Shown here: one piece after another, positions 57,601 to 64,000 of the stretch
How the letters are laid out: each line of letters begins with the position of its first letter
Numbering within the stretch: the stretch's first letter is position 1
Assembly: GCA_022447225.1 (NCBI GenBank)
Contig: JAKVAZ010000001.1
Coordinates: forward strand, 403,824-467,823
Direction: 5' to 3'
DNA from: Fuerstiella sp.
GTDB taxonomy: Bacteria; Planctomycetota; Planctomycetia; Planctomycetales; Planctomycetaceae
DNA: 64,000 nucleotides
The notes under the pieces: model-generated
The model's input: only the letters and a program-made list of their open reading frames with translations
What the model was told of the DNA's origin: nothing
Databases searched by the model: none
Translations under genes and position numbers: made by a program

Positions 57601-58803
57601 CTAATCAGCAGGCTGGCTGCGCGGGTAGGATCCGAGAATCTCAAGTCGGTCCGCCATCCTTTCCAGTTCTCGAATTGCCTTGCGGATTTTTGTGTCGCTA
57701 ACGTGCCCTTCGAAATCCACAAAGAACAAATAGCCGGATTCCGGAGCACGGAGTGGAAAGGATTCAATCCAGGTCAGGTTCACTCGACACGTTTTGAAAA
57801 CGGTCAGGGCGTCGGACAGTGCTCCTGGTTTATGTGAAACCTGAAGCAGGACCGCGGTTCTGTCTCGGCCGGTTGCCTCGGCGATCGTATCACCAATTAC
57901 CGCGAATCGTGTGATGTTGTTCTGGTTGTCTTCAATATTTGCGGCGACGATCTGCACTTCGTACTGCACGGCTGCCTGGTGACTGGCCACAGCCGCAGCT
58001 CCCGGCTTTTCACGGGCCAGCTGAGCTGCGGTGGACGTGCTGGTTACTTCAATCAGCCGAGCCTGCGGCATATTTCGGGCCAGCCAGTCTCGACACTGTG
58101 AGAGTGCCTGTGGCTTACTGTATATTTCGTTGATTTCACTGCGATCGCAGCGAGCCAGCAGATTGTGATGCACGTGAAGCTGGATTTCACCACAGATCCG
58201 CAGCGGCAATCGGGTAAACATGTCCAGCGTATCAACAATCCTGCCGTCGGTACTGTTTTCAATCGGGACCAGGCCAAAGTCGACATGTCCTCGATTCACT
58301 TCGTCGAAGACCGTGGCAATTGTGCTGACAGGAACCAAATCTGCCGAATGTCCAAAGCGATTAATTGCGGCCAGATGTGTGAAGCTGTACGCGGGGCCCA
58401 GGTAGGCAACACGTGTGCGACGCACGCGTTGTCGGCCGGCACTCAGTAAGGTGCGGAAAACCTCTTTTAATTCAGTTGATTCCAGCGGTCCCTTGTTGGA
58501 CTTTTCCAGATGCTGCCAAAGTTGAGCGTCGTCGCTCAGGTCGAAAACAGCCTTGGTCGGAATCTCTGACTCACCAGCTTTTCGAAGAAATAAAGTCGTC
58601 CGCTCATTGAGCAGTTCGACAAGTAGTCGGTCAACCTCAGTAAGTCGTTCCTCGGGAGTCTGAACGATTTTCTTCGGTCGGGATGATGCCGAACTGGTCC
58701 GCTGCGTTGTTTTCTTCTTCTTGGCAACCGGTTTTTTGCGGGCGACTTTCTTTGCGGGTGCCTTAGCTCGAGGAGACCGTTTTGTTGTTTTTTTCTTTGT
58801 CAT
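57601..58803 (-). CDS. pheA: Chorismate mutase / prephenate dehydratase with lysine-rich N-tail
   Basis: 400 aa. The first 45 residues have 15 Lys and 5 Arg with Ala, Pro and Thr, resembling the tails of histone H1-like proteins. The chorismate mutase helix follows (about 50-120: [19 protein letters not shown]). Prephenate dehydratase spans about 130-305 with the catalytic TRF at 298-300, and an ACT domain (about 318-390, with ESFPLR in place of ESRP) should give phenylalanine control. It makes phenylpyruvate. Upstream and divergent lies dnaK, with a dyad-packed stretch between. Confidence 0.93.
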
Positions 58804-58967
58804 CGTCGTATCCGATCAAATCACACGGCCGCCTCACGTGAATTAAGGGAACCGACAACCAACAGGCGTCCTTTTCGAGCTTGTACTGCTCCCCAAATCG
58901 AGTGTCAAGTACCCTGTACTCAAGCGCCGGTTGATGCATCTAAATGCAGCCTGCCAAATGGTTTTAG

Positions 58968-58994
58968 TCAACCTGGTTGATCTAACCAGATCAA
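58968..58994. promoter_or_regulatory. Overlapping perfect dyads upstream of dnaK
   Basis: TCAACC-T-GGTTGA (58968-58980) is a perfect 13-bp palindrome. It overlaps TTGATC-N6-GATCAA (58977-58994), a perfect six-base-arm dyad. Confidence 0.6.
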
Positions 58995-58999
58995 TCCGC

Positions 59000-59047
59000 T
59001 GCCACAGTGGCACAGCAGGAATGCCGGGAGGAGCTGCCACTGTGGCA
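59000..59047. promoter_or_regulatory. Pair of 13-bp palindromes, also one large inverted repeat
   Basis: TGCCACAGTGGCA (59000-59012) and TGCCACTGTGGCA (59035-59047) are each perfect palindromes about one centre base, and each is the exact reverse complement of the other. They can act as two operators 35 bp apart or fold as one 13-bp stem with a 22-base loop. Confidence 0.65.
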
Positions 59048-59079
59048 TGTAAAAATGAAGGTTGTGCAGGGCCAGCCAC

Positions 59080-59092
59080 TGTCAGTCTGACA
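59080..59092. promoter_or_regulatory. 13-bp palindrome upstream of dnaK
   Basis: TGTCAG-T-CTGACA is perfect, with the same 6-1-6 build as the elements at 58968, 59000 and 59035 but a different half-site. Confidence 0.5.
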
Positions 59093-59125
59093 CCATGATG
59101 ACAGGCTAAGGTCGATCCGTATGTT

Positions 59126-59245
59126 ACAAGTCATTTTAGAGAAAAGACTTGTGGCATTCTGTCGAGTTTCGGCACGGCGGATGCTAATCGAGGGTCTACT
59201 AAGCGGTTTGTGGTCTGCCGACACTGATCTTATTCGGCGGAATAA
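59126..59245. promoter_or_regulatory. Further hairpins in the dnaK leader
   Basis: ACAAGTC/GACTTGT (59126-59132, 59146-59152) has seven-base perfect arms; TCGGCA/TGCCGA (59169-59174, 59216-59221) could close a larger stem; TTATTC-GGCG-GAATAA (59230-59245) has six-base arms with a tetraloop. Confidence 0.45.
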
Positions 59246-59348
59246 AGTTGAACAATTTTCACGGTGAATGATTGTCTGGAGCAACGCCGCTGACGCGCGG
59301 TTTCATACAACGTCGAAGTCATAATTCGTGTGCCGGGAGTAAAGAGTC

Positions 59349-61247
59349 ATGCAGGGTGAAAAAATCATTGGGATTGACTTGGGAACAACCAACTCTGTGG
59401 TTTCGGTCATGGAAGGTGGTGAGCCGCGTGTGATTGCAAATCAGGAAGGCGCACGAACCACTCCCAGCGTGGTGGCGTATACGGACAAAGGTGAGACTCT
59501 TGTCGGGGATCCTGCGAAGCGTCAGGCCGTTACGAATCCAACAAACACAATTTACTCAATCAAGCGGTTTATGGGCAGACGCCACAGTGAAGTTCAGTCA
59601 GAAGAAAAGATAGTTCCTTATACAATCGTTGGTGGCGAAAGCGACTACGTCAAGGTTGATGTTTCGGGCAAGGATCAGACTCCCCCGGAAATATCTGCAC
59701 TGATCCTGCGTAAACTAAAACAGGCAGCGGAAAGCTATCTGGGTCACACTGTCAACAAGGCTGTCATCACGGTTCCCGCCTACTTCAACGACGCCCAGCG
59801 ACAGGCTACTAAGGACGCCGGACAAATCTCCGGACTTGAAGTGGCGCGTATTATTAACGAGCCAACCGCAGCCGCACTGGCATATGGCCTGGAAAAAAAA
59901 TCGGATGAAAAGATCGTTGTTTTCGATCTGGGAGGCGGAACGTTCGACGTCTCCATCCTCGAAGTGGGAGACGAACTGGTCGAGGTGTTGAGTACAAACG
60001 GTGATACTCATCTTGGCGGAGACGATTTTGATGAGGTGTTGATCGATCATCTGGCCACGGAGTTCAAAAGAACGGATGGTATCGATCTTCGCAGTGATCC
60101 GATGGCTCTTCAGCGACTTCGTGAGGCAGCGGAGAAAGCCAAGAAGGAACTGTCGACCCAGCAGACAACGGACATCAATCTTCCGTTCATTACGGCAGAT
60201 GCGTCCGGCGCCAAACACCTGCAGCTGTCCATTACCCGATCTCAATTTGAAGAGCTGATTGATCCGCTTGTGGAGCGTTGTCGGCAGCCGGTTCAGAGTG
60301 CACTCAAAGATGCAAAGCTCGACCCGTCACAGATCAATGAAGTTGTTCTGGTCGGCGGGTCCACTCGTGTTCCCAGGGTGCAGGCCTTTGTACGGGAAAT
60401 GTTTGGTAAGGATCCTCATCAGGGTGTCAATCCTGATGAAGTGGTTTCACTGGGTGCTGCCATTCAGGGTGGGATCATTGCAGGTGATGTTAAAGATGTT
60501 GTATTGCTGGACGTTACGCCGCTGTCACTCGGCATTGAGACTGAAGGGGGCATCATGACGACACTCGTCGAACGCAATACGACGATCCCGACGACCAAGT
60601 CAGAGACCTTTTCCACCGCTGCAGACAATCAGCCGGCCGTCACGGTGCGGGTTTTTCAGGGTGAACGTCGAATGGCTGCAGACAACCGACTGCTGGATCA
60701 GTTCGACCTGTCGGATATTCCTCCGGCTCCGCGAGGCGTGCCGCAGATCGAGGTGAAATTCGATATTGATGTGAACGGGATTCTGAATGTTTCCGCGAAA
60801 GATAAGGCAACGGGCAAGGAACATTCTATTCAGATTAAGCAGTCCAGCGGACTTTCGGACGACGAGATCGACCGAATGAAGCAGGATGCTGAAGCCCACG
60901 CCGAAGAAGACAAGCAGAAGGAAGAACTGGCGACGGCAAAGAACCAGGCATCAACACTGGTCAGCGCTACCGAGAAGACACTCAAAGAACACGCCGACAA
61001 GCTTGATGATGCCTCAAAATCGGCCATTGAAGCGTCGATTGAGAAAGTGAAATCTGTTTCTGCCGGTGACGATGCTGCTGCGATCAACAGCGCCCTGGAG
61101 GAACTGTCACAGGCTGGTCAGGCCCTTTATCAGCACATGGCCGCCGATGGCGAAGCCGGTGCAGAATCACCGGAGGCAGCTGCGAGCACCTCCGCAACAG
61201 ATGATGATGATGTGATCGACGCGGAGTTTGAAAAGAAAGAAGCGTAG
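59349..61247 (+). CDS. dnaK: Chaperone protein DnaK (Hsp70)
   Basis: 632 aa. ATPase domain from [16 protein letters not shown] to about residue 385, including [14 protein letters not shown] and [14 protein letters not shown]; a substrate-binding domain follows with [16 protein letters not shown]; the C-terminal tail ends [15 protein letters not shown]. The ATG is set by the family start; GGGAG lies upstream. grpE and dnaJ are not adjacent; clpB follows after 208 bp, and the two machines cooperate in protein disaggregation. Confidence 0.97.
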
Positions 61248-61455
61248 GCACCGATTTTCACCGCTGTGTTTTCCTGATTCGGGATTTCTGCAGCGGCGAA
61301 CCGTCCTTGTTTCTTTTTCGAATCCCAGCTGCACGATCGTTCCGACGTACCGTGCCCTGCACTGACGACACTGTTTCCTGGGCAGTCGTGTTATTTGCTG
61401 CGCCGTGTGCAGTCTTCTGCGGAATTCTTCTGACCTGACGAAGGGAGAAAAACTG

Positions 61456-64000
61456 ATGGCATTCAATCCGGAAAAGCTGACCGTAAAAGCGCAGCAGACG
61501 CTGCAGCGGGCTCAGGAACTGGCGGAATCAAAACAGCATGCCATCCTGCGGCCACTTCATTTACTGAAATCACTACTCGATGAATCCGATGGCATCATGT
61601 CTCCTCTGCTGCATCGAATTGGAGCAAACAAAGACCAGTTGTGTGGAATCGTTGATACCGAACTAAATCGTTTGCCGCAAAGCGGTGGTCAGTCTGATTC
61701 GCCCGGTGCCGGACCGGAAACTGTCAAAGTCCTCAATGCTGCACAGGATCAGGCTCGTCTGATGAAGGACGAGTTTCTGTCCACCGAGCATCTGCTGATT
61801 GCATTGACGCAGGTCGATGATCAGGCAAAACGTATTCTTGAGATGCACGCCGTGGACGAAATGGACATCCTCGCAGCTCTGAAGGAAATTCGTGGCAGTC
61901 AGACGATTACGGACGCACATCCGGAAGACAAATTCATGGCTCTGGAAAAATACGGTCGTGATCTGGTGGAGCTGGCTCGCCAGGGGAAGGTCGATCCTGT
62001 GATTGGTCGCGACACAGAAATTCGTCGGGTGATTCAGGTGTTATCGCGCCGGCGAAAAAACAATCCGGTTCTGATCGGAGAACCAGGTGTCGGGAAGACC
62101 GCAATTGTAGAGGGACTGGCTCATCGGATCGTGCTGGGGGATGTGCCGCAGAACCTGAAGGATAAACAGGTGTTTGCACTGGATATGGGGTCACTGATTG
62201 CCGGTGCAAAATTCCGGGGTGAGTTTGAAGATCGACTGAAAGCCGTTCTGAAGGAGGTTCAGGAATCGAACGGCCAAATCATCATGTTTATTGATGAGCT
62301 GCATACAGTGATCGGAGCAGGCGCCAGTGAAGGCGCGATGGATGCATCCAATCTCCTGAAGCCGACACTGGCCCGGGGGGATTTGCACTGCGTGGGCGCA
62401 ACCACTCTGGACGAGTATCGAAAGTACATCGAAAAGGATGCTGCTCTGGAACGTCGGTTCCAGCCTGTCATGGTTCAGGAACCCACGGTGGAAGATACGA
62501 TTTCCATTTTGCGCGGGCTGAAGGATCGATACGAAAGCCACCACGGTGTCCGAATCACCGACGATGCCATCATCGCGGCAGCCTCCATGTCCGATCGATA
62601 CATCGGCGACCGGTTTTTGCCGGACAAAGCCATCGATCTGGTTGATGAGGCTGCGAGCCGTCTGCGAATGGAAATTGACTCAATGCCGGTGGAGATTGAT
62701 GAGGCAACCCGTCTGCTGACCCGAATGCAGATTGAGGCCACAGCTCTGGAGCGGGAAAGCAGCGATGACAGCCGAGCCCGGCTGGACGAACTGCGAAAGC
62801 AGATCGCCGAGAGCAAAGAAGAAACCGACCAGCTCAAAATGCGGTGGGAAGCCGAAAAAGCGGTGCTGTCCGGACTGAGACCGCTGAAGGAGGAGATCGA
62901 ACAGCTTAGATCCGCCTACACCCGCGCCTTTTCACAGGCTCAGCAGACCAACCGCAATGAAGATTTTCAACAGGCGTTCGAGGCCGAGCAGGCGCTCAAG
63001 GTCAAGGAAGCCGAACTGACCGGGCTGGAATCGAGATCGCTTGAACTCGCTGAAAGTCAGGATGAGCGTTTGTTGCGTGAAGACATCACTCAGGAAGATA
63101 TCGCCCGGGTGGTCAGTTTGTGGACCGGGATTCCGGTGGCCCGGATGATGCAGGGAGAACGGGAAAAACTGCTGCGGATGGAGGAAGAAATCCACAAACG
63201 AATGATCAATCAGCACGAAGCCGTGACGGCTGTGGCCAACGCGGTCAGACGAGCGAGATCCGGCATGCAGGATGCCAGTCGGCCGATCGGATCATTCATC
63301 TTTCCCGGACCAACTGGTGTGGGTAAGACCGAATTGTGTCGGTCCCTGGCCGAATACATGTTTGATGACGAACGGAATATGGTGAGGATCGACATGAGCG
63401 AGTTCATGGAACCTCATTCGGTCGCCCGACTGATCGGAGCCCCCCCCGGCTATGTGGGTTATGAAGAAGGAGGTCGACTGACAGAAGCCGTGCGGCGAAA
63501 TCCTTACTGCGTCATCCTGCTGGATGAGATTGAGAAAGCTCACCGGGACGTGTTCAACGTACTGCTGCAGGTGCTGGACGACGGGCGACTGACCGATGGT
63601 CAGGGACGAACCGTGGACTTTACCAACACCATCGTGGTGATGACGTCCAATATCGGCAGTCAAATTATTATGGAGAAGGCCGAATCCGATGATCATGAGT
63701 CCATTCGCAGCAGCATCGACGAAGCCTTGCGCCGTGAGTTTCTTCCGGAATTTCTGAATCGAGTGGACGAAATCATCGTGTTTCATCCGCTGGGGCGTCG
63801 GGAAGTTCGGGAGATTGTTGATTTGCAGATCGAGCGACTCAGAAAGCAGATGGAAGCAGCCGGTTATCATCTGAGCGTCAGCGACAACGCGCGTCAGCTG
63901 GTCGCTAATGAAGGATACGACCCTCGCTACGGGGCACGTCCGGTGAAACGAGTCATTCAGCAGCGTCTGCAGAATGCTTTGGCCGGTGAGATTCTTTCGG
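61456..64000 (+). CDS. clpB: ClpB disaggregase, C-terminus cut by the window
   Basis: 848 complete codons are present and the frame is still open at base 64000; the full protein is usually about 860-870 aa, so only a short end is missing. The N-domain (1-145) is followed by AAA1 with Walker [10 protein letters not shown] and Walker [11 protein letters not shown], the long coiled-coil M-domain (about 400-530, [18 protein letters not shown] after it), and AAA2 with GPTGVGKTE and [18 protein letters not shown] stands nine bases before the ATG. It works with DnaK, encoded just upstream. Confidence 0.97.

Follow-up and report, generated by a model that had tools for sequence, protein, structure and literature searches.

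The intergenic region upstream of dnaK

The window, i.e., the whole stretch of 64,000 nucleotides analysed here, ends with the chaperone genes dnaK and clpB (Table 1), the latter located 3′ of dnaK and possibly co-transcribed with it. The closest DnaK from a named genome, that of a Fuerstiella sp. MAG, is 97% identical. The gap between the prephenate dehydratase gene and dnaK holds all four perfect 6-1-6 palindromes of the original prediction, and re-checking of the sequence located them exactly at 58968, 59000, 59035 and 59080. The chance expectation of about 0.03 per 125 bp is likewise correct (125/4096 = 0.03), with the reservation that the base rate of such palindromes is about 2.4 times higher in this window, since 38 were found versus 15.6 expected. 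Nowhere else in the window do four fall within 125 bp; other stretches of this size hold at most two.

Three of the four palindromes are copies of TGCCA-N3-TGGCA (half-site TGNCA), which we designate predicted upstream activating sequences (UAS). The two palindromes previously described as exact reverse complements of each other (59000 and 59035) do have identical arms, but they correspond to one site present twice because only the centre base differs. In the genus relative L003, the left half of the second copy is retained and the right half is degraded. The third copy lies 91 bp ahead of the GG of a putative −24/−12 element, and L003 carries TGCCAGTCTGACA at the identical spacing. The palindrome at 58968 is unrelated to the other three and decays in L003, the nearest relative, where one arm base is altered.

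Table 1. Features of the dnaK locus (window coordinates).
Feature	Position	Strand	Description
Prephenate dehydratase gene	57601-58803	minus	Upstream border of the gap
Fourth palindrome	58968..58980	.	TCAACC-T-GGTTGA; not TGCCA-like, outside the UAS array
Predicted UAS copy 1	59000..59012	.	TGCCACAGTGGCA, perfect palindrome, TGCCAC-A-GTGGCA; a single spacer base differs in L003
Predicted UAS copy 2	59035..59047	.	TGCCACTGTGGCA, perfect palindrome, TGCCAC-T-GTGGCA; 35 bp from copy 1
Predicted UAS copy 3	59080..59092	.	TGTCAGTCTGACA, TGTCAG-T-CTGACA; 45 bp from copy 2
Intermediate inverted element	59126..59153	+	ACAAGTC...GACTTGT, between UAS and promoter
Putative sigma-54 −24/−12 element	59169..59185	+	TCGGCACGGCGGATGCT; GG 59171-59172, GC 59183-59184, GG-N10-GC
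Predicted dnaK 5′ leader	59196..59348	+	Assuming a transcription start some 12 nt 3′ of the −12 GC
dnaK	59349..61247	+	632 aa; HSP70 and prok_dnaK matches above cut-off
clpB	61450..64000	+	Continues beyond the window end; TIGR03346 chaperone_ClpB, 1269.8 bits, above cut-off

The three predicted UAS are located about 90-170 bp upstream of the −24/−12 element. The latter contains, at 59171-59184, the GG-N10-GC of sigma-54-dependent promoters, and the palindromic sites, within the 80-200 bp upstream expected for such promoters, are in helical phase with it. This element has two mismatches to TTGGCACG-N4-TTGC, and matches of this quality are no commoner in the window than by chance (6 versus 7.6 expected). 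We call it a sigma-54 element because it is conserved in L003, which retains GTTTCGGCAC-R-GCG-R-ATGCTA and the exact spacing to the UAS sites, and because its position matches that in other relatives. From the geometry of sigma-54 promoters, dnaK transcription would start about 12 nt past the −12 GC. As a candidate sigma-70 promoter, a single weak match (9 of 12 positions, 59098-59125) was detected and rejected.

The additional complementary arms noted around the palindromes are all present in the window and differ in their fate. The pair TTGATC/GATCAA (58977-58994) is lost in L003, TCGGCA/TGCCGA includes a TCGGCA that belongs to the −24 element, and ACAAGTC/GACTTGT, the intermediate inverted element, retains its core in L003. 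The pair TTATTC/GAATAA lies at 59230-59245, in the predicted leader, where TTATTCGGCGGAATAA is replaced by TTGTTCGGTGAAACAA in L003, one pair being changed on both sides; a small hairpin may be maintained there, as far as two compared sequences suggest.

Recurrence of the module before dnaK and other chaperone genes

We compared 79 dnaK upstream regions including the window, drawn from a set of 80 loci from named genomes from which L011 and L014, with less than 250 bp upstream, were left out. In most of these regions, TTGGCACG-N4-TTGC is preceded by one, two or three TGCCA-N3-TGGCA-like sites. Defining a module as a UAS site and a sigma-54 element scoring at least 6 of 8, located 75-125 bp apart, we found it with up to two UAS mismatches in 70 of the 79 regions, versus 0.30 per shuffled set, and with up to one mismatch in 55 (0.05 when shuffled). 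It is missing from nine regions (L013, L015, L017, L023, L036, L068, L075, L077 and L082), and none of the 79 control tracts from dnaK coding sequences contains it. Dyads with up to one mismatch number 115, compared with 1.95 in shuffled regions and 2 in equal tracts within dnaK. Their commonest spacing is 45 bp (35 cases), followed by 46 bp (10) and 35 bp (7). The distances from the nearest UAS to the −24 GG are helically phased across 64 modules (Rayleigh Z of 11.9 at 10.5 bp and 13.8 at 11 bp, kinship being ignored). The array is kept before dnaK in relatives, in both position and spacing. At the dnaK loci of Pirellulales-like L064, L065, L067, L069, L071, L072 and L082, TGACA-N3-TGTCA replaces TGCCA-N3-TGGCA. 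The third base of the half-site is the loose one, since some Pirellulales-like loci have TGACA, and these loci offer a natural test of activator specificity.

Gibbs sampling of the intermediates between UAS and promoter recovered a motif, GYAAcT..TTg...TTACg. In 47 of the 62 non-redundant intermediates, this motif begins either 54-56 or 44-45 bp ahead of the −24 GG, its two registers differing by about one helical turn. The core recognised by IHF is YAA-N4-TTG, which the motif of the 59126-59153 type may resemble. A strict YAA-N4-TTG core is present between UAS and promoter in 20 of 70 cases, versus 7.3 when shuffled. The element at 59126-59153 is a possible bend site of the IHF/HU type.

Genomes were also scanned with patterns that join the UAS and the −24/−12 element and are blind to genes, with the reversed pattern as control. 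The looser pattern matched in 45 of 59 relatives (18 of 59 for the control) and the stricter one in 78 of 294 genomes of the phylum (4 of 294 for the control), so that the exact module was not matched by the stricter pattern in 216 of 294; both exact patterns miss the promoter of the window itself. A pattern with N11 for N10, which served as an unplanned negative control, matched in 6 of 21 genomes, and its seven loci (L083-L089) were left out. Among the matches listed, we surveyed 60 loci, 30 from each scan: the first ORF encodes Cpn60 in 23, Hsp20 in 13, Hsp70 in 10, ClpB in three, a receiver-only response regulator in four and another protein in seven, all of the latter from the looser scan. 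Hence 49 of these 60 listed loci open with GroEL, Hsp20, DnaK or ClpB. The four receiver-only regulators directly follow the module (L230, L250, L251 and L242) and groES comes next in three of them, continuing with groEL in two and with hsp20 in one.

In the Fuerstiella genome itself, we inspected 50 of 53 strict palindromes. A suitably placed sigma-54 element accompanies two of them, before dnaK and before an hsp20 gene (contig C7, L302), a count close to the 1.3 or so expected by chance (50 sites × 2 strands × 0.0127). This hsp20 gene is preceded by two UAS sites 35 bp apart, a layout repeated at the hsp20 gene of G002, a genome of the same genus; gene identity and this match are what argue for an hsp20 module.

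Repressors, sigma-54 and candidate activators

A search for HrcA returned nothing in 59 relatives, while the identical search, as positive control, matched in 7 of 14 control genomes. The CIRCE element (TTAGCACTC-N9-GAGTGCTAA) has no match in the window at up to three mismatches, which bears out its reported absence. The HspR-HAIR element CTTGAGT-N7-ACTCAAG was rejected as well, with two window matches versus 2.6 by chance; the best HAIR-like match of the region, GTCAAGTACCCTGTACTCAAG (58904-58924, three mismatches), is at chance level.

The sigma-54 gene was detected in 57 of 59 relatives, the two misses being genomes that are 79% and 88% complete. Both rpoN and enhancer-binding proteins are encoded in the genome of the window: PF04552 is located at C11:245828-246301, and ten proteins contain PF00158 (E up to 1e-30). 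Among the activator types, L090 alone is linked by reciprocal best hits across the ten genomes compared, two of which have only five enhancer-binding proteins. It is an NtrC-like protein with receiver, AAA+ and HTH_8 domains. In L090 (227-3323), a kinase gene precedes the regulator, and the next ORF resembles dapF by sequence; a kinase gene lies beside the regulator in 6 of the 10 loci examined. No sensor domain was detected by Pfam in the L090 kinase. With a presence cut of E up to 1e-28, set after the values had been seen and thus not blind (every genome matched at the first threshold), the module is present in 67 of 171 genomes with the L090 type versus 11 of 123 without it (p = 1.5e-9, relatedness ignored), and outside the set bearing the L093 type (see below) in 48 of 150 versus 11 of 123 (p = 2e-6). 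This association is suggestive only, because several families have the L090 type without the exact module. Neither proximity nor structure narrows the choice: UAS sites near activator genes, a sign of self-control, amount to two scattered matches in one comparison and none in the other, no activator gene adjoins module loci by motif, and the DNA-binding parts of the candidates match the solved structures of NtrC, ZraR and Fis, which reveal no site specificity. We tentatively put forward the kinase and NtrC-like response regulator pair of contig C2 (L090 type) as the best candidate, one that may well turn out not to be the activator.

The sigma-54 module could be correctly identified and yet be served by a different activator, the L093-type PspF-like protein of contig C12, a sensorless protein with AAA+ and HTH domains, perhaps held inactive by a chaperone. 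This protein looked best at first: reciprocal best hits link it to each of the six comparison genomes, its 11-residue recognition segment LGINRNTLHKK is identical in 7 of 7, and the module is present in 19 of the 21 genomes with a strong match. These strong matches (E up to 1e-28; 21 of 294 genomes), however, all fall within three families of the class to which the window belongs, and the protein is absent from 59 genomes that bear the module; its DNA-binding part resembles Fis itself. We rejected it as a phylum-wide activator, and its role at the window appears distinctly unlikely. In L093 (994-2031), GAFTSA replaces GAFTGA in genomes of the same family, and the DNA-binding end is Fis-like.

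A sigma-54-dependent reading and its relation to known systems

The site, its tandem spacing and helical phasing, the sigma-54 element, the sigma-54 gene, the failure to find HrcA and the recurrence before groEL, hsp20, dnaK and clpB across the phylum, all read from sequence, point to a common explanation: the palindromes are very probably the UAS of an enhancer-binding protein that drives a sigma-54-dependent heat-shock promoter of dnaK, as part of a regulon. An AAA+ activator with a Fis-type helix-turn-helix would bind as dimers to the three tandem TGCCA-N3-TGGCA sites. A DNA bend between these sites and the promoter, for which an IHF/HU-like protein at 59126-59153 might be responsible, would allow the activator to contact the RNA polymerase-sigma-54 complex and, when misfolded proteins accumulate, to open the dnaK promoter. 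We infer that the sites are bound by a regulator, that this regulator acts positively, that heat is the signal and that a bend protein sits between UAS and promoter.

The original prediction considered instead an array of operators for some unknown repressor of the heat-shock response. Such a protein would bind the dyads and be released by heat, as HrcA and HspR are. Tandem palindromes ahead of a chaperone gene would suit such a repressor, the more so as neither HrcA nor CIRCE is there for the job, and the notion of an operator array as such stands, because its position and spacing are conserved before dnaK and it recurs before groEL, hsp20 and clpB. Its geometry is that of activator sites, not of a repressor operator, since the array lies upstream of the −24/−12 element in helical register with it. 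The operators of repressors tend to cover the promoter or the start, whereas these sites are located about 80-170 bp upstream, with the 75-125 bp spacing to −24/−12 kept in 70 of 79 regions, and sigma-54 promoters require an activator. A repressor is thus very unlikely.

Still less credible is a structured leader or antisense RNA in which the inverted repeats would fold in the transcript. On either strand, the stretch does fold more stably than shuffled sequences (z of −2.03 and −2.65), but the predicted leader does not (z of +0.68), and transcription is predicted to start only downstream of the dyads. Covariation fails too: the arms vary independently, all five pairs being kept in only 68/159 (+) and 75/159 (−) dyads of non-redundant relatives. 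Apart from a tRNA elsewhere, the Rfam search gave no match. The leader-RNA reading is consequently not supported. A functionless chance cluster, for which the 2.4-fold excess of 6-1-6 palindromes in the window might speak, is refuted by the retention of the sites in relatives and their reappearance ahead of chaperone genes, and can be practically dismissed.

If sigma-54-dependent activation is right, sigma-54 would run the general heat-shock response in much of a phylum. In its widest form, this positive control would involve the L090-type pair reading TGCCA-N3-TGGCA before groESL, dnaK, hsp20 and clpB in much of Planctomycetota, in place of HrcA, with the receiver-only proteins of groES operons feeding back on the phosphorelay; we offer this as a speculation, rather unlikely to hold in full.

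Known sigma-54 promoters with NtrC-type UAS share with this locus the GG-N10-GC −24/−12 element, tandem palindromic sites, helical phasing and, possibly, a bend-type element in between; IHF commonly sits between UAS and promoter in such systems (PMC7962754). They differ in that the genes controlled here would be general chaperones, and in the site itself, TGCCA-N3-TGGCA, which one of the candidate proteins would bind. In Myxococcus xanthus, the NtrC-like regulator of the HsfB-HsfA phosphorelay activates the heat-shock gene lonD (PMC9109919), and in both systems a heat-shock gene would be controlled by an NtrC-like activator of the two-component type, here as a candidate suggested by sequence. 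HsfB, however, is a hybrid kinase, and the targets given in that source are lonD, pili and secondary metabolism, not groEL, dnaK or hsp20 (PMC9109919); the candidate kinase here has no Pfam sensor domain. With HrcA-CIRCE, the likeness is limited to inverted repeats ahead of dnaK/groE, the window having no CIRCE and HrcA being found in 0 of 59 genomes.

In Rhodopirellula baltica, DnaK, GroEL, Hsp20 and ClpB are reported as heat-induced while rpoH, rpoE and rpoN are not heat-regulated, and a different cascade was suggested (PMC2754498). An rpoN that is not itself regulated is compatible with the sigma-54 reading and lends it no support. A survey of sigma-54 regulons reports chaperone COGs enriched in Planctomycetia and predicted sigma-54 promoters before GroEL, IbpA, GroES, GrpE, DnaJ and DnaK in Planctomycetota (PMC12316311). 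Sigma-54 control of planctomycete chaperones is therefore not new, having been predicted there in bulk; the main text of that survey contains no upstream activating sequence, UAS, palindrome or TGCCA, and no assigned activator was seen in it. Our literature search, with most subscription papers outside its coverage, returned no TGCCA site in print. The present analysis adds the predicted activator site and its layout, the chaperone regulon that it marks across the phylum, and a ranking of candidate proteins; together, the site, the shared promoter layout and the short candidate list make chaperone induction without HrcA testable in planctomycetes.
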